Virus record (IMG/VR): IMGVR_UViG_3300024346_000017
Span: 49,109 to 113,108 of that record
Source of the DNA: a virus
Reading direction: 5' to 3' (one strand)
DNA length: 64,000 nt
The translations under genes were made by a program, and so were the position numbers. The notes beneath the pieces are model-generated. The model worked only from the letters and a program-made list of their open reading frames with translations, was not told where the DNA came from and ran no database searches. This document shows, piece after piece, positions 1,637 through 64,000 of the stretch (positions within the stretch are counted from its first letter, which is position 1; every line of letters begins with the position of its first letter).

Positions 1637-4117
1637 ATGTCAACAGTAAGAATTCAAGTACGTAGAGGTTTAGCTTCAGAATGGACCGCAGCAAATCCAG
1701 TATTGGCTGCAGGTGAAATGGGTGTTGAAACAAACACTAATTTATTTAAGTTTGGTAACGGGTCTTCTACATGGACTGCCCTTGCATATGCCAACAACTC
1801 AGATGTAGCAATTGGTGAAATTTCCCAAGACGCTATCAACACAGCCCTTACAATGGGTGCAGGTTTAACAAAGACTTATAACGATGGAGCAAATACAATA
1901 ACTATAACTGTTGATACAGATGTAGTTTCAACAAGAGCATTTGCTACAACAGCAGCAGGGACTGCACAGACTGCAGCAGAAGCAACCGCAGCAGCAGATG
2001 CAAGCACAAAGGCTTCAGCAGCACAAGCTGCAGCAATTGCAGCAGCTTCAGCAGATGCAAGCGCAAAGGCTTCAGCAACTCTTGCTTCAGCAACCGCAGC
2101 AGCAGCAGCATATACAGACTCTGCAGTAAATGGAGTAAATAACTCTCTTTCAGATTACCTAGAGGTAACAGAAAGAGGAGCAATGAATGGAGTTGCTTCC
2201 CTAGACGCAAATGTCAAGGTTCCACAAGCACAGCTTCCTTTAAATACTTTAACAACAAATATTAATACATCAGGAACAGTATCTGCAGCAACAGTAATGG
2301 CAGAAGATGTAACTTCAAGCGGTGTAGTAACAGCAAACAATGTAACTATTAGTGGAAACCTAACTGTAAATGGAACAACCACATCAGTAAATTCAACAAG
2401 CGTTACAATTGATGACCCAATGATTTATATTGGCGATGGCAATCAGTCAAACTCACTTGACCTTGGAGTTGTAGCAGCATTTAATGATGGCACATACCAG
2501 CATGCAGGTCTTGTTCGTGATGCTTCAGATCAAGGAATCTGGAAACTATTCTCAGGAGTAACATCAGAGCCTGGCACAACAGTAGATTTCACTACATATA
2601 CAAAAGATAAGCTAGAACTAGGAACTTTGTATGCAGATGCAGCAAGAATTGGATCAGTTACAAATCTAGAAATTCAGCACCTAGGAGGAGTTACTTCACC
2701 AATCCAGGCACAGCTTAATACCAAATTGGCTAGCGTACCTGATGATTCTGTTGGAACAGCTAAGATTCAAGCAGCTTCAGTAACTACTGCAAAAATTGCA
2801 GATGGTGCAATTGATACATCTAAAATTGCAGATGTTGCAGTAAGTACTGCAAAAATTGCAGATGGTGCAATTTTAACTGCAAAGCTTGCAGATGCTTCTG
2901 TAACTTCAGCAAAAATTCCAGCAAACACAATTTCTCAATCACATCTAAATGATGACGCAGTAGGAACTGCAGAAATTGTTGCACTTGCAGTAACTACCGA
3001 AAAGATTGCAGATGCTGCAGTAAGTACTGCAAAAATTGCAAATTCAGCAGTTACTACTTTAAAAATTGAAGATCTAGCAATCACAAATGAAAAGATTGCA
3101 ACAGCAGCAGGAATAGCTCAGTCAAAGATTTCTGGATTAACTGAAGCCCTAGCTACAAAAGCAACAATTGATTCACCAACATTTACTGGTGCAGTTGTTC
3201 TTCCAGCAACAACAACAATCGGTCTAGTTGATGCAACTGAAATGGGATACTTAAATGGTGTTACATCTTCACTTCAAACACAGCTAACAGCCCTTGGAAC
3301 AGCAGATTCAACACACGCAGCATTAACTGAAAATGTTCACGGCATTGCAAATACTGCAGCACTTGCAACAATGGCTTACGCTGATACAGCAGAAGCAGAC
3401 GCAATTACAGCAGCAGGTACAGCAGCAGATTCAAAGATTGCAACTGCAGTAGCAGCACTTACAAAGTCTTCAGTAGGACTTGCAAATGTTGATAATACAG
3501 CAGATGCATCAAAGCCAGTCTCTACAGCACAGGCTTCAGCAATCGCAACTGCTAAGTCAGAAGCAATTGCAGATGCAACTTCACAAGTAAATGCATTACT
3601 AACAGGAGCTCCAGCAGCACTCAATACACTTGATGAGCTTGCAGCAGCACTCGGAGATGATGCAAACTTTGCAAGCACAGTTACTACTAGCTTAGCAGCT
3701 AAAGCACCAATTGCTTCACCAACATTTACTGGAACAGTAACAGTTGCAGCAGCAGGAGTAGCGTTTGCAGATAAGACTCAGACAAAGGCAGGCGTACCTT
3801 CTCTCACATCAATTGCCACAGCAGTTTCAGCAAGCACAACACTAGATGCGCTTGGAACAGATGCAGCAGTAAGAGATTCACTAGTTCCTCTATCAGGAGC
3901 AGTAAACGTCAGCTTTGAAGCAACAGGAAATGCAAAGTATGAAATCGGTTCTTCAATCAGCTTCTACCAGTCAGCAGGAACTGGTGCTAATATAACTGGA
4001 TCTGGAGTTACAATTCTTGCGACACCAGGTGCAACATTAAGAACAACAAGTTCATCAGTAACAGCCACTAAGGTTGCAGCAACAACATGGTTGTTAGCTG
4101 GAGACCTAAGAGCATAA
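1637..4117 (+). CDS. Long tail fibre protein with decapeptide repeats
   Basis: This is an 826-residue fibre. Residues 1-55 (VRIQVRRG, then LAAGEMGVET and FKFGNGSSTW) match the Mtd N-terminal-type attachment domain found at the start of many phage fibres. An Ala-rich shaft follows (~100-150), then a beta-rich segment, then about twelve 10-residue repeats of the TAKIADGAIV kind (~374-493). A GAPAALNTLDELAAAL segment is shared with the gene ending at 1142. The C-terminal ~80 residues (YEIGSSISFYQSAG) form a beta-rich tip that is probably the host-contact end. It has its own promoter. Function is inferred from domain architecture. Confidence 0.8.
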   Translation: MSTVRIQVRRGLASEWTAANPVLAAGEMGVETNTNLFKFGNGSSTWTALAYANNSDVAIGEISQDAINTALTMGAGLTKTYNDGANTITITVDTDVVSTRAFATTAAGTAQTAAEATAAADASTKASAAQAAAIAAASADASAKASATLASATAAAAAYTDSAVNGVNNSLSDYLEVTERGAMNGVASLDANVKVPQAQLPLNTLTTNINTSGTVSAATVMAEDVTSSGVVTANNVTISGNLTVNGTTTSVNSTSVTIDDPMIYIGDGNQSNSLDLGVVAAFNDGTYQHAGLVRDASDQGIWKLFSGVTSEPGTTVDFTTYTKDKLELGTLYADAARIGSVTNLEIQHLGGVTSPIQAQLNTKLASVPDDSVGTAKIQAASVTTAKIADGAIDTSKIADVAVSTAKIADGAILTAKLADASVTSAKIPANTISQSHLNDDAVGTAEIVALAVTTEKIADAAVSTAKIANSAVTTLKIEDLAITNEKIATAAGIAQSKISGLTEALATKATIDSPTFTGAVVLPATTTIGLVDATEMGYLNGVTSSLQTQLTALGTADSTHAALTENVHGIANTAALATMAYADTAEADAITAAGTAADSKIATAVAALTKSSVGLANVDNTADASKPVSTAQASAIATAKSEAIADATSQVNALLTGAPAALNTLDELAAALGDDANFASTVTTSLAAKAPIASPTFTGTVTVAAAGVAFADKTQTKAGVPSLTSIATAVSASTTLDALGTDAAVRDSLVPLSGAVNVSFEATGNAKYEIGSSISFYQSAGTGANITGSGVTILATPGATLRTTSSSVTATKVAATTWLLAGDLRA
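2756..3115 (+). repeat. 30-bp period coding repeat (decapeptide repeats)
   Basis: About twelve successive 30-base units encode TAKIADGAID-like decapeptides, with I, A and V/I recurring at fixed positions. The regular hydrophobic spacing suggests a beta-helical or beta-solenoid shaft. The DNA copies have diverged, so the protein period is clearer than the base period. Confidence 0.75.
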
Positions 4118-4137: not shown

Positions 4138-4971
4138 ATGTCAAAAAATATAGGTAATAAAGCCGCCGCACAAGACAACTTCATTGGACCAAATGCTCCA
4201 ACTGGCTTAACTGCAACAAATGTTGGAGCTAACAGAGCATTTAACGATGGGCGTATTGATCTAGCATGGGTTGCACCAACTGGAGCAAATACTCCAACAT
4301 CATATAAGATTATGCGTGGTGGAGCAGAAATTGCAACAGTTTCTCACCCTACAGTAACTTATTCAAATACTGGACTAACATCAGCCACACTTTACTCTTA
4401 TACAGTAAGAGCAGCAGATGCTTATGGAACTTCAGCCGATTCAAACGCTGCAACAGCAACAGCAACAACAGTTCCTTCTGCTCCAACAAGTGCATCTGCA
4501 ACAGCAGGAGTTAATGCAAACACAGTTCAGTGGGCAGCGCCAGCAACTGGTGGAACTGCAATCACAAACTACTATGTTGTTGGAAATGATGCAACAACTG
4601 GAAATACTACTGGTTTATCTGTATCAATTGCAGATTCTGCAAATACATCTCAATACTATAACGTATATGCAGACAATGCTAATGGAAGATCAGCTGCATC
4701 AAATAACACTAATACTGTTACTACACTTGCACCTACTTTCTTCGCACCACCGTTTTTCCCACCATTCTTTCCACCAAGCTTCTTCGCCCCACCAGGGTTC
4801 TTTGCCCCACCAAGCTTCTTTGCACCGCCAGTGTTCTTTGCCCCACCAGGGTTCTTTGCACCGCCAGTGTTCTTTGCCCCACCAGGGTTCTTTGCACCGC
4901 CAGTGTTCTTTGCGCCACCAAGCTTCTTTGCGCCACCAACATTTGGCTCACGTTTTATCAGATCGTATTAA
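4138..4971 (+). CDS. Fibronectin type III protein with FFAPP repeat tail
   Basis: The 277-residue product has two fibronectin III-like domains (about residues 18-112 and 114-200; for example NTPTSYKIMRGG and LYSYTVRAADAYGTS). These are common on phage tails, where they give weak carbohydrate contact. Residues 201-267 are ten FFAPP units plus two FFPP units separated by G, S or V, so APPG occurs three times. The protein ends GSRFIRSY. The tail is very hydrophobic yet proline-rich, which is unusual for a soluble virion protein. A dioxygenase gene follows directly, making the Pro-Pro-Gly units candidate hydroxylation sites (inference). ATG 4138 follows AGGAG. Confidence 0.75.
   Translation: MSKNIGNKAAAQDNFIGPNAPTGLTATNVGANRAFNDGRIDLAWVAPTGANTPTSYKIMRGGAEIATVSHPTVTYSNTGLTSATLYSYTVRAADAYGTSADSNAATATATTVPSAPTSASATAGVNANTVQWAAPATGGTAITNYYVVGNDATTGNTTGLSVSIADSANTSQYYNVYADNANGRSAASNNTNTVTTLAPTFFAPPFFPPFFPPSFFAPPGFFAPPSFFAPPVFFAPPGFFAPPVFFAPPGFFAPPVFFAPPSFFAPPTFGSRFIRSY
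4738..4938 (+). repeat. 18-bp (36-bp higher-order) repeat encoding FFAPP
   Basis: The unit TTCTTTGCMCCRCCA plus one codon (18 bases) is repeated through the 3' end of the gene. In the middle, units alternate Gly and Val at the sixth position, giving a 36-base higher-order period. Confidence 0.85.
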
Positions 4972-4982
4972 TAATATACAAA

Positions 4983-5012
4983 ACAATAGCAAGGGGCAAC
5001 CCTTGCTATTGT
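4983..5012 (+). terminator. 13-bp stem with GCAA tetraloop
   Basis: ACAATAGCAAGGG (4983-4995) and CCCTTGCTATTGT (5000-5012) pair perfectly around a GCAA (GNRA) loop. It sits just after the fibre gene stop and ends the fibre operon. No T run follows. The 3' arm overlaps the -35 box of the next promoter. Confidence 0.75.
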
Positions 5013-5037
5013 GCTATATAAATATAAATGATACAAT
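5009..5037 (+). promoter_or_regulatory. Promoter of the dioxygenase cluster (leaderless)
   Basis: TTGTGC (5009-5014), 17 bases, then TG-A-TACAAT (-10 at 5032-5037). ATG 5044 is six bases after the -10 box, so transcription should start at or next to the start codon. There is no ribosome site. Confidence 0.65.
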
Positions 5038-5043
5038 TTGTAT

Positions 5044-5748
5044 ATGACAAATATAAATGAATCTTTTAGCTTTTCTTCTAAAGAACAGCTTTTCCCAGGC
5101 GTATGGGTTTACAGAAATGTAATTAAGAACGACCTTGATATTATTAATAGGCTCAATGAAATTGGCGAATCTGCCATAAGCGAGAACGATACAAGATACG
5201 CATGGACGTTTGGCTTTGTTGGGTATAGCGAAAAAAGACCATCATACAGAGACTGTGAAGACATTAAAGTCGGAGAAATTAAAAACCCTAGATCTAAAAC
5301 AGAGCAATTAGTTTCTAGTTTGTGGACAGATTTAAAAAAATCACAGTCCCCAGCTGTTGAAGACTATTGCGGAATGTATAATGTAAAAATGGATTACTGG
5401 GAAGTAATGAACTGCATCAAATATGGAAAGGGACAACATTTCCAAGAGCATGCAGACCATGGGTTCTCTTATAGCGCTACAGTTTCATTAGTTGCATACG
5501 TAAACGACGACTATGAAGGCGGAAACTTATATTTCCCTAAGCTTAATCTAGATATTAAGCCAAAAGCTGGAGACCTATATATATTCCCATCAACATATTT
5601 ATTTTCACACAGGGCAATGCCAGTTGATTCTGGAATGAAGGTTTCAATTGTAACTATGCTAGATTATAATGATCATGCTCATAGACAAGAGTTTATGCAG
5701 ATGAGAGCTAACTGGTTAGAGCAAGACGCACAAGCTGGCAAGAACTAA
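5044..5748 (+). CDS. 2-oxoglutarate/Fe(II) dioxygenase (prolyl 4-hydroxylase-like) 1
   Basis: This 234-residue enzyme belongs to the double-stranded beta-helix dioxygenases, which use 2-oxoglutarate and O2 to hydroxylate a substrate. The iron ligands are visible: H136 and D138 (HxD) and H189, with K199 as the likely 2-oxoglutarate-binding residue. NDDYEGGNLYF follows the HxD motif as in P4H-like members. A TTG at 5038 in the same frame overlaps the end of the -10 region, so ATG 5044 is the start. It is the first of four dioxygenases directly downstream plus a DUF6065 gene. The substrate is unknown; phage fibres are a candidate. Confidence 0.85.
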   Translation: MTNINESFSFSSKEQLFPGVWVYRNVIKNDLDIINRLNEIGESAISENDTRYAWTFGFVGYSEKRPSYRDCEDIKVGEIKNPRSKTEQLVSSLWTDLKKSQSPAVEDYCGMYNVKMDYWEVMNCIKYGKGQHFQEHADHGFSYSATVSLVAYVNDDYEGGNLYFPKLNLDIKPKAGDLYIFPSTYLFSHRAMPVDSGMKVSIVTMLDYNDHAHRQEFMQMRANWLEQDAQAGKN

Positions 5749-57693: not shown

Positions 57694-57786
57694 ATGAATA
57701 AAATATTAGTTGTCAGGTATTACTTATACAAGATTTTTCGTAAAAGAAAAAAGAAGAATCCAAATGAAAATAGGTACATATACTAA
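57694..57786 (+). CDS. 30-residue basic peptide coupled to carbamoyltransferase
   Basis: MNKILVVRYYLYKIFRKRKK begins a short basic peptide whose TAA overlaps the next ATG (TAATG). It may be a leader peptide that couples translation, or a short membrane/nucleic-acid binding peptide. No ribosome site is obvious. Confidence 0.4.
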   Translation: MNKILVVRYYLYKIFRKRKKKNPNENRYIY

Positions 57787-59234
57787 TGTCACTGATACTA
57801 GGAATTAATGAAACATCTCATGACGCATCAGTATCTTTAATTAAAGATGGCGAGATATTATTTGCTGGTCATGCAGAAAGATATAGCAAGCAAAAAAATG
57901 ACTGGTATGTAAATGATTCTTTAATACAGGACGCCCTGTCTTACGGGACACCTGATCATATAGCTTATTATGAGAAGCCTCTTCTAAAGGCCTCTAGGCT
58001 ATTTATAAGGGGTGGTGCAGGAGACTGGAAGCCAAAGTTTAATATACCAGGAGTCCCTAGAAAATCTTTTAGCCACCATTACTCTCATGCATGTGCAGGA
58101 TATTATACTAGTTCTTTTAATGATGCCGCTATCGTAGTTCTTGACGCAATAGGAGAATACAACACTTCAACTATTTGGGTTGGAGAAGGAGAAAAGATTA
58201 GTCTTAAGTATAAGCAAAACTATCCAGTAAGCTTTGGTTTATTTTATTCTGCTTTTACTAAATTAATAGGCCTAATGCCAAATCAAGAAGAATATATTAT
58301 GATGGGGATGGCAGCTTATGGAGACTGGACAAGATACTATAAAGAGGTGGATAGCTATTTCCCACAATACGATCAACAAAAATATAATTTCCATAAAGGA
58401 ATATATGATTGGCAAACTATAATTACAGAGCAAGACAGGTTTGATATTGCAGCAGCAGTTCAAATGGTATACGAGCAAAGACTAAATCAATTTATGCGTA
58501 TGGCAAAGCATCTAACTGGCAAAAATAATTTAGTGTTTATGGGAGGATGTGCTCTTAACTCTTCAGCCAACACTTTGCTTTGGGATATTTTTGATATGAT
58601 TTGGATTATGCCAAACCCAGGAGATGCTGGAAGCTCATTGGGTGCCGCTGCAGCACTATACGGTAAGCATTTAGAATGGAAAGGCCCTTACCTAGGATAT
58701 GATATGGGGGGCAAGTATCCAGTTCAAGAAATTGTGGACGGCATACTAAAGGATGGCATTGTTGCTGTAGCATCAGGAAGGGCTGAGTATGGACCAAGAG
58801 CATTAGGCAATAGAAGTATTTTAGCTGATCCAAGAGATCCATTAATTAAAGACAAGGTTAATTTAATTAAACAAAGAGAATTATTTAGACCGTTTGCCCC
58901 AGTGGTTATGGCAGAGCATGCATCTAAATGGTTTGATATGGATTTTGAAAGCCCATACATGCAATACACAGTAAAGTGTTTACAGCCAGATAAGATACCA
59001 TCTGTTGTGCATGAAGATGGAACATCCAGAGTTCAGACAGTAACAATTAAAGAACACAGGGGTTTGTATATGGCATTAAATAAATTTTACTTACAAACTG
59101 GAGTTCCTATATTTTTAAATACTAGCTTAAATATAAAAGGTCAGCCTCTTTTAAATGACGAGCAAGACGCTATTGACTGGCAGGCTCATTACAAGTATAA
59201 TATAGTAATGAGTCCCAATAGCTCAGTTGGTTAG
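57786..59234 (+). CDS. NodU/CmcH-type carbamoyltransferase
   Basis: The 482-residue enzyme has the N-terminal Kae1-like start (LGINETSHDASVSLI), the HHYSHACAGYYTSSF segment, and the C-terminal EYGPRALGNRSILADPRDP and RPFAPVVM blocks, with PIFLNTSLNIKG near the end. These enzymes attach carbamoyl groups to hydroxyls of sugars or small molecules using carbamoyl phosphate and ATP. It lies among SGNH genes, suggesting glycan modification. Its last 23 bases overlap tRNA-Met. Confidence 0.85.
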   Translation: MSLILGINETSHDASVSLIKDGEILFAGHAERYSKQKNDWYVNDSLIQDALSYGTPDHIAYYEKPLLKASRLFIRGGAGDWKPKFNIPGVPRKSFSHHYSHACAGYYTSSFNDAAIVVLDAIGEYNTSTIWVGEGEKISLKYKQNYPVSFGLFYSAFTKLIGLMPNQEEYIMMGMAAYGDWTRYYKEVDSYFPQYDQQKYNFHKGIYDWQTIITEQDRFDIAAAVQMVYEQRLNQFMRMAKHLTGKNNLVFMGGCALNSSANTLLWDIFDMIWIMPNPGDAGSSLGAAAALYGKHLEWKGPYLGYDMGGKYPVQEIVDGILKDGIVAVASGRAEYGPRALGNRSILADPRDPLIKDKVNLIKQRELFRPFAPVVMAEHASKWFDMDFESPYMQYTVKCLQPDKIPSVVHEDGTSRVQTVTIKEHRGLYMALNKFYLQTGVPIFLNTSLNIKGQPLLNDEQDAIDWQAHYKYNIVMSPNSSVG

Positions 59235-59415: not shown

Positions 59416-60354
59416 ATGATTGAATCAGAAATTAATAAACCCCATCAAAACTATTTAGAGGGATGGGAAAATCTTTTATTACAAGACATAAGACTTGCTG
59501 GTTATGGAAATTTTAGCGAAGACATTATCCCAATTGAATACTTTAAAAATGATCTTGGGTATAGAAGCCAAGCATTTGAAAATAAAGCCGACATTTTGTT
59601 TTTAGGAGATTCATTTACTAGGGGAGATGGCTTACCAATAGAAAAAGTTTATACACACATGCTGTCAGAAAAATTAAATCTTAGTTTTTCTTGTCTGGCA
59701 ACTGGTGGGGAATCTGTAGCAATGCAAATAGCTAAATGCTTTTTTTATTTTAAAAAGTATGGCCACCCAAAAAAAATTGTAGCTTTATTTCCAATGCATC
59801 GATTTTCATACCCGTATATTTTTGGAGAAATGGAAAATCCTAAAGAAAATATTAAGCAGGCAAAAGTATTTAACTCCCCTGGGGTAGAAGAAAGATATGT
59901 ATTGACTTCAGATTTATATGAATTTAAAGTAGAGGACTATGCAAAAAGGCCTTATCTACCAAGACAAGTTATATCTAATCAACTTGCTTTTTTCTATGAC
60001 AGAATTATGCTAGACATGCTAGAGCAATATTGTGAGTCTAATGGCATTGATTTTATATGGAGCTGCTGGAATCAAGGTTACCAAGCAGCGCTTTACGAGG
60101 CAATTGAAGAAAAATATCCTGGGTACCACAAAAATTATTGCTGGATAGAGGCAAATAGCTGGTACTCAAATGGAGAAGTTGTCCTCCCCCCTGGTCAAAA
60201 AGAGGTTGATTGCCATTTAGAGTTTAGCGACGATTTTCTGTTTCATATAGCCGCAGATAGGGTAAAAAATAATGGAAGAGGGGCACACAACGGATCCCAC
60301 TGGCATATGCATGCCTCAGAAGATTTCTATAACTTTATTGTTAATAAAAAATAA
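59416..60354 (+). CDS. SGNH hydrolase-like protein 2
   Basis: The 312-residue protein has ILFLGDSFTRGDG with nucleophile S66 in a canonical GDS, LATGGESVAMQIAK, and a C-terminal GSHWHMHASEDFYNFIV. It is closest to the protein at 62634-63560 (shared FFY..I..DMLEQYCESNGIDFIWS-type block). A sugar or lipid esterase role is inferred. Confidence 0.72.
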   Translation: MIESEINKPHQNYLEGWENLLLQDIRLAGYGNFSEDIIPIEYFKNDLGYRSQAFENKADILFLGDSFTRGDGLPIEKVYTHMLSEKLNLSFSCLATGGESVAMQIAKCFFYFKKYGHPKKIVALFPMHRFSYPYIFGEMENPKENIKQAKVFNSPGVEERYVLTSDLYEFKVEDYAKRPYLPRQVISNQLAFFYDRIMLDMLEQYCESNGIDFIWSCWNQGYQAALYEAIEEKYPGYHKNYCWIEANSWYSNGEVVLPPGQKEVDCHLEFSDDFLFHIAADRVKNNGRGAHNGSHWHMHASEDFYNFIVNKK

Positions 60355-60405: not shown

Positions 60406-61020
60406 ATGGCAGCAAAAGGAAGTTTAGAAGCAATAATTGAAGTTGCAAAAAAAGAAGTTGGAACTATTGAAGGCCCAAAAGATAATGAAACAAAGTACGG
60501 CGCATGGATGAAGGTAAACTTTCAACCATGGTGCCAGTCATTCGTTTCTTGGTGTGCATACACAGCTGGCGTAGCAAAATTTCCAAAGTCTGCGTCAACT
60601 GTAGCAGCATCAGATCAGTTTAAAAAAGAAGGACGATGGTCAGATGCACGTAACGATGATCCACAAGCAGGAGACTGGATCTATTTTGATTTCCCAGATG
60701 ATGGGGTAAATCGTATTTCACATGTTGGTCTTTGCATTAAGAATAATGGCGATGGAACAATTCAGGTTATCGAAGGAAATACATCTGGAACTGCAAAGGG
60801 AGATCAGCGCAATGGTGGAATGTGTGTTGAAAAAACTCGTGCCTATGTAAAAGATAATAAGAAGAAGTTGCTCAATGCAGTAGTTGGCTGGGGACGACCA
60901 GTATATTCTGGAGAAGAGAATGCTCCACTTTTAAATAAGTTGGCATCAGCTCCAGCAAAGAAAACAACACCAGCAAAGACAGCAAAAGGCGGCGGCGGAA
61001 AGCCAGCTGTAGCAAAGTAA
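60406..61020 (+). CDS. CHAP-domain endolysin
   Basis: The 204-residue enzyme has C43 in PWCQSFVSWC, H106 in ISHVGLC, and E123/N125 in IEGNTSG, the CHAP amidase/endopeptidase set that cuts peptidoglycan peptides. No signal peptide is present, so it probably depends on a holin. The last ~20 residues are Lys/Ala/Pro/Gly-rich (KKTTPAKTAKGGGG) and may bind the anionic cell wall. It overlaps the thermonuclease gene by one base. Confidence 0.82.
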   Translation: MAAKGSLEAIIEVAKKEVGTIEGPKDNETKYGAWMKVNFQPWCQSFVSWCAYTAGVAKFPKSASTVAASDQFKKEGRWSDARNDDPQAGDWIYFDFPDDGVNRISHVGLCIKNNGDGTIQVIEGNTSGTAKGDQRNGGMCVEKTRAYVKDNKKKLLNAVVGWGRPVYSGEENAPLLNKLASAPAKKTTPAKTAKGGGGKPAVAK

Positions 61021-62446: not shown

Positions 62447-62634
62447 TGCCAGTATATGAATATAAATGCTCGTATGATGAAGCTCACCCACTAATGTCAA
62501 TCAATAGATCTATTACGGATACTGATCCAGGGTATACATGCGTAGAATGTGAATCAGATATGATGAGGCACTTCACCCCATTTGGAATTCAATTTAAAGG
62601 CAATGGCTTTTATAAGACTGATAATCCAAAATAA
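62446..62634 (+). CDS. FmdB-type zinc-ribbon protein
   Basis: The 62-residue protein begins MPVYEYKCSYDEAH and has YTCVECESDM, the FmdB-like zinc ribbon. It is TAATG-coupled at both ends. The family has regulatory associations but no clear enzyme role. Confidence 0.7.
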   Translation: MPVYEYKCSYDEAHPLMSINRSITDTDPGYTCVECESDMMRHFTPFGIQFKGNGFYKTDNPK

Positions 62635-63560
62635 TGGAAGACATTAAAAGACTTTTTATAAATGAGCTAATTGAGTTTCCCAATGGCGCTCAGCTAAATC
62701 ATGCAAGAACAGATATACATAAAATAGATTACACTCTCAATAGCTTGGGGTATAGAAGCGAGGAGTTTGATGGTAAATCAGAAATTCTTTTTCTTGGTTG
62801 TTCTCATACATATGGACAGGGTCTACCAAAAGAAGATGCGTGGACACATATTCTATCTAAAAAATTAAATTTAAGTTCGTCTAGCCTAGCTGCACGTGGC
62901 GATTCTGTTATGGGACAAGTATCAAAAGCTTTTTATTATTTTGAAAAATTTGGCAATCCAAAAATTGTAGTAGCCTTATTCCCATTTTCTAGAATAATGA
63001 CTCCTTATACAAAGGGTAAGATGGAAACCAAAAATGAGTTTAAGAGACACAAGTTTACGGAATATGATTATATGCCTTTAGTTGAATACTCAGAGACTTG
63101 GGGCTCGTTTGCTAAATATGCAAAAGCTCCATACGATCCCCAAGATATACTAACAGAAGAGTTTGTATTCTTTTATGAGAATATTTTTATTGATATGCTG
63201 AGACAATATTGTAAGTCAAACAACATAAAGTTTGTTTGGAGTAATTGGGACCCCATGTATCAGGAAGATATATACAACGAAGTAAATTCATTTTACCCCC
63301 AGCACCATGAAGGCTATTGTTATATTGAAGCATTTGATTGGAAAATTCCCAATCACGAACCAACCCAGTCTGGTGCACGTGGAGAAGCAGATAACTATGG
63401 AGAATTTAATGCCTTAGACTGTCACTCAGAACACGATAGAGACCATGAACTATTTTATCGTAGTTCAGACAGAGCAAATGAACATATACCTCATTGGGGT
63501 ACACACAAACAATTACATATAGCAGAAGATTTCTACAACTTTATTGTTGACAAACTTTAG
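62634..63560 (+). CDS. SGNH hydrolase-like protein 3
   Basis: The 308-residue protein has ILFLGCSHTYGQG with S57 (GCS form), LAARGDSVMGQVSKAF, and a C-terminal GTHKQLHIAEDFYNFIV. The middle block DMLRQYCKSNNIKFVWS matches protein 2. Three such paralogues within 7 kb, around a carbamoyltransferase, point to a glycan-modifying set. Confidence 0.72.
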   Translation: MEDIKRLFINELIEFPNGAQLNHARTDIHKIDYTLNSLGYRSEEFDGKSEILFLGCSHTYGQGLPKEDAWTHILSKKLNLSSSSLAARGDSVMGQVSKAFYYFEKFGNPKIVVALFPFSRIMTPYTKGKMETKNEFKRHKFTEYDYMPLVEYSETWGSFAKYAKAPYDPQDILTEEFVFFYENIFIDMLRQYCKSNNIKFVWSNWDPMYQEDIYNEVNSFYPQHHEGYCYIEAFDWKIPNHEPTQSGARGEADNYGEFNALDCHSEHDRDHELFYRSSDRANEHIPHWGTHKQLHIAEDFYNFIVDKL

Positions 63561-63575
63561 TTTAAACTAACATTC

Positions 63576-63584
63576 TGCTATAAT
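63576..63584 (+). promoter_or_regulatory. Extended -10 promoter (TGC-TATAAT)
   Basis: TGCTATAAT (-10 at 63579-63584) lies 43 bases before the TTG at 63628, with TAGGAGAT as ribosome site. The 14-bp palindrome TTAGTTTAAACTAA lies just upstream at 63557-63570. Confidence 0.65.
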
Positions 63585-63627
63585 TACTAAGTAAGCAAAA
63601 ATATTGCATTACTTAGGAGATCCCTAG

Positions 63628-64000
63628 TTGACTAGAAAGATTAAGTATTTTTTAACCAGCCTTTTTATAATCGGCTGGCTTTTCCTTTTTAGTCCTAACT
63701 TTGCTAATGCTAATGAGCCACCCGCTCCCTCAGAGCAAGTTGTTGTAAGCCCAGCACAACAAGCGGTCAATACAGCAATCGCAACTGCAACTACAGAAGT
63801 TGCACAAGCCGCAGCTGCATCAGATACAGCAACAGTGACTATAGCCACTGCGGTTGAATCAGTAACAGCGTCTAACACTGCTGTAGCAGCAGCAAATACA
63901 GCGGTAGCAGCAGCAACGGCTGCGGTAGCAGAAGTATCAAATGTATCCTCAGCCGTAGAAACAGCAACAACAGTTGTTCAAACAGTTACATCAACAATAG
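63628..64000 (+). CDS. Secreted alanine-rich protein, 3' truncated by the window edge
   Basis: It starts at TTG 63628 after TAGGAGAT. Residues 1-29 look like a signal peptide: basic MTRKIK, a hydrophobic core (FLTSLFIIGWLFLF) and an ANA-NE cleavage site. The visible mature part is a proline linker followed by Ala/Thr/Val repeats (TAVAAANTAVAAATAAV). A phage-encoded exported Ala-rich protein is unusual. It could be a cell-surface or periplasmic helper, or a fibre-like protein routed outside the cell. Confidence 0.65.
   Translation, partial: MTRKIKYFLTSLFIIGWLFLFSPNFANANEPPAPSEQVVVSPAQQAVNTAIATATTEVAQAAAASDTATVTIATAVESVTASNTAVAAANTAVAAATAAVAEVSNVSSAVETATTVVQTVTSTI

Follow-up and report, generated by a model that had tools for sequence, protein, structure and literature searches.

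A gene cut by the end of a phage record encodes the start of a candidate membrane-anchored, stalk-and-head surface protein

The known exported surface proteins of phages are, in the parts of the reports available, small superinfection-exclusion proteins with a lipid or N-terminal anchor (PMC3952083, PMC11480721). Ltp, of Streptococcus thermophilus phage TP-J34, is phage-encoded, exported and tethered outside the cytoplasmic membrane, with a spacer and an active outer domain; it is a lipoprotein of ~142 aa with an N-terminal anchor, belongs to the lysogeny module, and blocks DNA injection (PMC3952083). The Ltp-like gp41 is a superinfection-exclusion lipoprotein of Cutibacterium acnes phages (PMC11480721). 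A host-encoded counterpart, CwpV of Clostridioides difficile, occurs in several types with different repeat domains, and the repeat domain confers a phage resistance that resembles superinfection exclusion; CwpV is phase-variable and, in the available text, leaves adsorption unaffected (PMC4737114).

Here we characterize gene A, the 5' part of which occupies positions 63628–64000 (+ strand) of a 64,000-nucleotide stretch of viral DNA (hereafter, the window). Like Ltp as described, its product is phage-encoded and—judged from sequence—exported and tethered outside the membrane, with a spacer and an outer domain. Unlike Ltp, protein A is about six times longer, has no lipobox, is apparently anchored at its C-terminus, and has a coupled partner (protein B); its gene lies close to that of an endolysin, and no integrase was found in the record. 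The likeness to CwpV is one of description: both are surface proteins that come in types with different domains. In the parts of the literature available, we recognized no description of such an A+B module. Overall, A looks like a phage-made surface protein, anchored and with a stalk and a head; phage-encoded host-surface proteins are already known, and A contrasts with them in being large, modular and apparently membrane-anchored, in having an invariant partner, and in recurring in many uncultured phage contigs. With moderate confidence, we propose that the window's open reading frame is the 5' end of A in a two-gene surface-display module (A+B) that would coat the infected cell, most likely blocking re-adsorption. 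What the sequences show is the gene structure, the signal-peptide pattern, the exchangeable heads, the constant C-terminal domain, the invariant coupling to B, and a usual position near an endolysin gene; they support export and C-terminal attachment to the membrane.

The reading frame begins with TTG and is open at the window end. The first-pass annotation had described a secreted protein, and had noted that an upstream start might remove its signal peptide; the codon directly 5' of the TTG is an in-frame TAG (63625–63627), and so no upstream start is able to do this. The TTG start and a closely similar N-terminus are found in all 80 fetched relatives, a set chosen by that similarity (best 80 of 166). 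The first 28 codons (63628–63711) encode a putative Sec signal peptide, as had been noticed: a basic N-region, a hydrophobic stretch (11-residue mean KD 2.43) and a predicted cleavage site, ANA^NE. The call agrees with family statistics and with similar relatives, and passes a simple, home-made rule on which all of the signal-peptide calls in this work are based; shuffled sequences passed the rule too, in 84 of 2000 cases when the first 60 residues were shuffled and in 123 of 2000 when all 124 were. The mature protein (63712–64000, residues 29–124) starts with EPPAP and continues as an Ala/Thr/Val-rich stalk, predicted to be helical from the model of this part in relative L007; the gene runs on past the record end. 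The alanine-rich body described earlier is borne out (66% Ala/Thr/Val after the cleavage site), while the "Pro linker" is so in part: EPPAP is present but short, and the real Pro-rich spacer lies ~500 residues further on.

Upstream of the gene lie (i) an extended −10 promoter-like element (TGnTATAAT; TGCTATAAT, 63576–63584), (ii) a leader hairpin (CTAAGTAAGCAA...TTGCATTACTTAG, 63587–63616), and (iii) a Shine-Dalgarno site, GGAG (63616–63619), at which the hairpin ends and which persists, slightly altered, among the relatives shown. TGnTATAAT occurs 51–53 nt before the TTG in all 35 distinct 60-nt leaders of the window-type N-terminal family; over 5.5 million nt of loci it is found 464 times, counting both strands, overlapping loci and these leaders themselves. 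The sequence 5' of the element varies among window-type genes. RNAalifold predicts the hairpin from 14 leaders (10 pairs, −6.5 kcal/mol), with one pair showing a compensatory G-C to A-U change (9 versus 5 sequences), which is thin covariation support. The conserved element and the hairpin suggest that gene A has putative promoter-like and leader elements of its own. Positioned between the extended −10 and the ribosome site, the hairpin could serve to control either translation or the stability of the mRNA.

The end of the window coincides with that of its source record, a 113,108-bp IMG/VR virus record. Positions 3–944 of that record, on the same strand and outside the window, encode the last 313 residues of protein A. 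Over 246 residues this piece shares 97.6% identity with the C-terminus of relative L007, whose N-terminus is 97% identical to that of the window. In relatives L042 and L048 gene A is internal, with one complete copy between genes shared with the window upstream (CHAP, SNase and a 62-aa gene in both; a kinase and DUF2061 in L048) and genes that match those at the start of the record (B and HolA through thioredoxin). The gene adjoining A in the window (62634–63560) is absent from that place in both. The flanks of these complete copies indicate that the record was most likely opened inside gene A, and most likely lacks roughly 450 middle residues of A (estimated from the 896 residues of L007). 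Two further contigs, L006 and L053, break off within gene A, at residues 122 and 124, and breaks at the same repetitive place are a sign of an assembly problem there. Residues 122–124, where L006, L053 and the source record end, appear to be an assembly-break hotspot, as do the Pro-rich repeats, in which at least 18 of 50 incomplete copies end (by eye). Of the downstream sequence that the first-pass annotation had asked for, the C-terminus lies at the record start, and relatives show the whole gene.

Of the best 80 of 166 confirmed IMG/VR relatives, 30 reach the stop codon; 29 of these encode 778–921 residues, and one ends early, at 347. The N-terminal part of A consists of the signal peptide, an Ala/Thr/Val stretch, a beta domain and a second Ala/Thr stretch. 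It is followed by Pro-rich repeats (PPAEE or PVDTTPVETE), acidic DGK/DGE-type repeats and a conserved domain, and the protein ends with a hydrophobic helix, Gly/Ser, and RRKW or similar. The AlphaFold2 model of L007 residues 29–520 (46 sequences; mean pLDDT 87.5, pTM 0.60) shows long helices, then a beta domain of 11 strands and, after it, a pair of returning helices, and is a predicted stalk with a head (a beta sandwich). For the C-terminal 247 residues of the record's own A (66 sequences; mean pLDDT 80.5, with the 10-residue blocks of 91–200 at 90 or above), the model shows a helical repeat part plus a compact domain that closes with one 30-residue helix.

Neither model matched a solved structure at E ≤ 0.001 in Foldseek, and the window-type beta head, which was searched within the 492-residue model only, had no significant match. 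For both models, VIA alignments gave rows within the range usual for helical models, and the fold-search rows for the C-terminal model mostly cover the helical repeats and barely the conserved core. The best Foldseek row for stalk and head is PDB 8w20, the umbrella toxin particle Umb1 of Streptomyces; the match (E 0.086, probability 0.84) is not significant, and its VIA-align score (Z 9.7, rmsd 7.6, 282 aligned) is of a size common for helical models. Unlike Umb1, A has no recognised toxin domain, and is apparently anchored rather than a secreted particle. By sequence, the C-terminal domain has no convincing match among solved structures (best E 0.09), and the stalk's matches to colicins (E 0.01–0.08) were taken as coiled-coil composition.

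Streptococcal antigen I/II proteins consist of a signal peptide, an Ala-rich helical stalk, a beta head, a Pro-rich region, a C-terminal membrane helix and a basic tail. Protein A has its parts in the same order as these Gram-positive stalk-and-head adhesins; unlike them, it has no LPXTG, is phage-encoded, and is paired with B. The antigen I/II-type family was not among the structure-search matches. Among 141 unique complete A proteins, drawn from all loci gathered, LPXT[GAS] in the last 70 residues and LPXTG anywhere are each found in 0/141, and a conserved LPxxTPV lies 95–367 residues from the end in 125/141. The features that A does share with LPXTG adhesins are the Sec signal peptide (122/141 by the rule) and the C-terminal hydrophobic helix with its basic tail. 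With one-protein spanins it shares the C-terminal helix, and not the N-terminal lipobox, a pattern present in the first 75 residues of 0/141. By the sequence features tested, then, A is neither an Ltp, an LPXTG protein nor a spanin.

A likeness of the stalk to fibre shafts at the window start, reported in the first-pass annotation, finds no support in alignment: composition-corrected BLASTP yields E values of 0.54 and 0.44, and the likeness is one of composition only. When the stalk and head of the closest full-length relative were compared with the record's ORFs of at least 80 aa, gene A excepted, nothing reached E < 0.1; the only other hits, one to the second stalk stretch and one to the C-terminal part, have E 0.39 and 0.17. 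No head or stalk turned up in the record's other ORFs, and A thus shows no link to the receptor-binding proteins of its own phage. The term "fibre-like" fares no better, given the dissimilarity to the record's fibres and the lack of a PHROG match at E ≤ 0.01 for L022, a full-length relative.

The family was gathered in sets of at most the best 80, in which distant relatives are under-sampled; loci overlap and lie partly on common contigs, and distinct counts are given where made. A search with the C-terminal domain gave 35 loci, and one with a C-terminal-domain alignment at least 455 confirmed stretches, of which the best 80 were kept. The signal-peptide rule is satisfied by the 122 of 141 A proteins mentioned above, compared with 67 of 897 other ORFs of at least 150 aa in the same loci. 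Eighteen of the 19 that fail have a basic-hydrophobic N-terminus by eye; the 19th is a bacterial copy, L131 (see below). At the other end, the final helix has a best 19-residue mean KD of at least 1.6 in 140/141 (minimum 1.55, median 1.93), and the net charge after it is +2 to +7 in 141/141. These figures use the final helix; after the best stretch of the last 110 residues, the net charge was negative in 10/141. The helix is only moderately hydrophobic and Ala-rich, with a nearly invariant Asn, and is a putative, probable membrane-spanning segment. Sec export of A is therefore supported by a sequence pattern kept across unrelated heads, and to this extent the earlier description of A as "secreted" stands; free release is probably not the end state. 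The final hydrophobic helix, the basic tail and a coupled gene for a two-TM protein make an anchored surface protein the better reading: A is probably membrane-anchored and displayed, not freely secreted.

Between these two ends, the middle of A changes. A Pro-rich 30-residue window (at least 8 Pro) occurs in 111/141 A proteins, and the window-type beta motif in 52/141. Other members carry recognizable heads: PA14 above the Pfam cut-off of 24 in L201 (28.5 bits) and L203 (45), and the galactose/rhamnose lectin domain SUEL in L184 (37.7 bits, cut-off 31.4), with a score of 25, below the cut-off, in L168. Seven of the ten A proteins scanned have no head domain above the Pfam cut-off; on five window-type proteins Pfam gave sub-cut-off matches only, including TerB and, over the Pro repeats, Extensin_1. 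Beyond the exchangeable heads, PHROGs, Pfam, NCBIfam and PADLOC gave no above-cut-off match for the scanned A and B representatives (PADLOC being run on four proteins). A count of head types by single-linkage clustering was dropped, as it lumped 156 of 181 pieces. On sequence grounds, the heads of A are exchangeable over a constant C-terminal domain, and the domains recognized suggest sugar binding for those other members only, not for the window-type beta head.

Directly behind A lies the gene for protein B, of 54–64 residues with two hydrophobic segments (predicted two-TM). The A and B genes overlap by 4, 7 or 8 nt in every one of the 98 loci in which A is followed by 250 nt or more, with B starting 3, 6 or 7 nt before the last base of the A stop codon (72, 25 and 1 cases). 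A B model run over 292 loci found 225 B ORFs, 223 directly behind A, two at a contig edge and none alone; of 229 A ORFs, 223 have B, six are at a contig edge, and none is otherwise unpaired. The set includes 80 loci fetched by B alone (best 80 of 595; 79 of them new), such that, within that limit, the pairing is checked in both directions. The A–B junctions comprise 145 distinct sequences, which clustering at 97% reduces to 124. Across 31 aligned B proteins the core W-T-L-L-G-M-F-I-A-W-V-V-L-D-G-S-A-K is invariant or nearly so. Family scans (PHROGs and Pfam on two B proteins, NCBIfam on 31) gave no informative match and no holin. B resembles small phage holins in being small, in having hydrophobic segments and in the endolysin gene nearby; unlike them it is coupled to A, not to the endolysin. 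A comparison by hhalign with D29 gp11, the r1t holin and Av-1 HolB gave probabilities of 0.2 to 3.0%, a test that small holins can escape. Microbacterium phage Pumpernickel gp1/gp2, considered as an A–B pair, has similar coordinates and proteins that are unrelated by eye.

Outside the IMG/VR contigs, one bacterial copy was found. L131 encodes 323 residues with the same C-terminal domain, an HRRKP tail and an adjoining B; its N-terminus fails the signal-peptide rule. It sits on a 292-kb contig of the actinobacterial MAG acMicro-4 AMD-COM-C5, and no phage gene was recognized in the 16 kb read around it. A general cellular anchor was considered and rejected: among 398 family, 19 genus and 396 phylum genomes relative to the acMicro-4 MAG, the C-terminal alignment A3 matched one, that same genome (of genomes with many first-look candidates, only nine were scored). 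A second phylum match, G414 (E 9.7e-4), is Nif3-like by eye and was dropped as chance. With acMicro-4 the only matching genome, the pair looks acquired rather than a cellular system. For the beta head, 136 pattern matches in bacterial genomes yielded none that was confirmed. A search of deposited phages gave no relatives of full-length L022 or of the C-terminal part of L126, and B of L131 had two chance matches there (E 5); that collection is without at least one published freshwater actinophage (KU886271), and so absence from it says little.

In the source record, A–B is followed by a protein that we label holin-like (best PHROG "nuclease", E 9e-26; holin E 0.067) and by a WhiB gene (PF02467, 42.8 bits, cut-off 23.6), and a WhiB gene lies within 3 kb downstream of A in 20 of 85 loci. 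WhiB is, in the available parts of two reports, a marker of actinobacterial phages (PMC6802176, PMC10202952), which points to freshwater Actinobacteria as probable hosts where it is present. A search for tyrosine and serine recombinases, integrases and resolvases detected none in the source record, which has a gap. Several other observations concern the surroundings. In the window, 57786–59234, upstream of the endolysin gene, encodes a carbamoyltransferase (PF02543/PF16861) that is present in 3/6 relatives compared (L042, L022, L007). Genes 59416–60354 and 62634–63560 encode proteins of ~310 aa each, with no Pfam match and SGNH-type hydrolase-like by eye, that share the end EDFYNFIV (a 32-base DNA repeat, 91% identical). 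Positions 1637–4117 carry an Mtd_N domain (PF18454, 51.1 bits) and tail-fibre PHROG matches. In L088, the holin-like membrane protein (1123–1413) has as its best PHROG phrog_26427, "nuclease", a label that looks wrong. A few genes past the module, L088 encodes a subtilase (PF00082, 56.9 bits; 4453–5625 in both L088 and the record) with a signal-peptide-like N-terminus by eye, to which the product of L042 14688–15833 is similar. L088 6335–7378 has a signal-peptide-like start by eye, an Ala/Thr-rich body and no Pfam match; the phage of L088 may, on these sequences, export several proteins.

How might such a module work? We infer cleavage, membrane anchoring, A–B contact, display and timing, as follows. 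Protein A would be exported through Sec and its signal peptide cut at AxA, after which the C-terminal hydrophobic helix and basic tail would hold it in the cytoplasmic membrane, probably along with the two-TM protein B. The Pro-rich spacer would take the helical stalk and beta head across the wall and out past it. The heads would most likely, late in infection, occupy the host's own surface sugars or receptors, and progeny and rival phages would then fail to adsorb to the infected cell or its debris. An earlier suggestion, that the protein could coat the cell, fits an anchored A. Masking of the surface is favoured because (i) the heads vary, as expected of host surfaces, (ii) some heads are of glycan-binding types, and (iii) exported phage and host surface proteins that stop phages are, in the parts of the reports available, known in Gram-positive bacteria (PMC3952083, PMC11480721, PMC4737114). 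Against masking stands the fact that Ltp and CwpV, as described there, act after adsorption (PMC3952083, PMC4737114). Other points weigh against the proposal as a whole: the moderate hydrophobicity of the final helix and its nearly invariant Asn, the lack of a significant structural match for the window-type head, seven of ten scanned proteins having no recognised head, the absence of a link to the phage's receptor-binding proteins, family scans of B that say nothing of its role, and a position that would suit lysis equally well.

The position of the module near lysis genes makes a role in lysis the main rival, one that we judge unlikely: A, anchored at its C-terminus, would span the wall and, together with B, help to disrupt the envelope or time its breakdown, like one-protein spanins in Gram-negative hosts. 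The window contains a CHAP endolysin gene at 60406–61020 (+ strand; PF05257, 41.5 bits, cut-off 26; PHROG endolysin), and among the 62 loci with both flanks, 56 have a CHAP gene no more than 6 kb upstream or 3 kb downstream of A. This count is used in place of "any lysis-type neighbour" (62/62), which counts B itself. Holin-like genes are common within 3 kb downstream (HolA in 46 and HolC in 31 of 85 loci; our own label, with weak PHROG support), and a small lipoprotein and a membrane protein follow in 21 and 23 of 85 loci (e.g., L039 10957–11575), mostly replacing the holin-like gene. Against these neighbours stand the lectin and PA14 heads, unneeded for lysis, the absence of a lipobox from all 141 A proteins, and the copy in the actinobacterial MAG, which has B and no recognised lysis gene beside it. 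Nor, to our knowledge, is an outer membrane to fuse with expected in such Actinobacteria.

The same heads could be read as facing outward, with A an adhesin by which infected cells or debris stick to other cells, particles or grazers, changing transmission. The PA14 and SUEL domains, the diversity of heads and the predicted stalk-and-head shape would all suit an adhesin, and effects on grazers have been proposed for freshwater phages in the part of the report available (PMC6802176). There is, however, no sign of an external target, and the benefit to a lytic phage shortly before lysis is doubtful; we rate this reading a little below a lysis role. Less probable again is the secreted protein of the first-pass title: A would then lack a real membrane anchor and, once shed or released, act as a decoy or matrix in solution. 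It has a signal peptide, and its C-terminal helix is short and Ala-rich, with the moderate KD values given above, yet the positive charge after that helix (141/141) and the invariant coupling with two-TM B argue for retention in the membrane. Finally, it is very improbable that A is a virion or tail-fibre protein with an assembly or membrane tag resembling a signal peptide: Ala-rich stalks are common in fibres, and A of L120 follows a 761-aa gene that looks structural by eye (its PHROG, phrog_11667, has no assigned function), but A carries canonical AxA sites, the one full-length relative scanned has no PHROG match, the record's fibres are dissimilar, and the chromosomal copy is without recognised phage genes.

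We return, then, to surface display as the preferred reading. Somewhat more tentatively than for the window's own gene, we suggest that phages of freshwater Actinobacteria possess a dedicated, mobile surface-display system, in which (i) a conserved C-terminal anchor and an obligate two-TM partner are kept, (ii) unrelated, often glycan-binding heads are swapped, and (iii) the host surface would be re-decorated during lytic infection; one lineage of Actinobacteria would have taken up the pair into its chromosome. If the display reading is true, it would make testable one way in which phages of freshwater Actinobacteria compete or escape re-adsorption, and would supply a natural means of anchoring proteins to such cells. 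According to the available part of the report, two phages infecting 'Ca. Nanopelagicales' have already been isolated (PMC10202952), which brings this setting within reach of culture.
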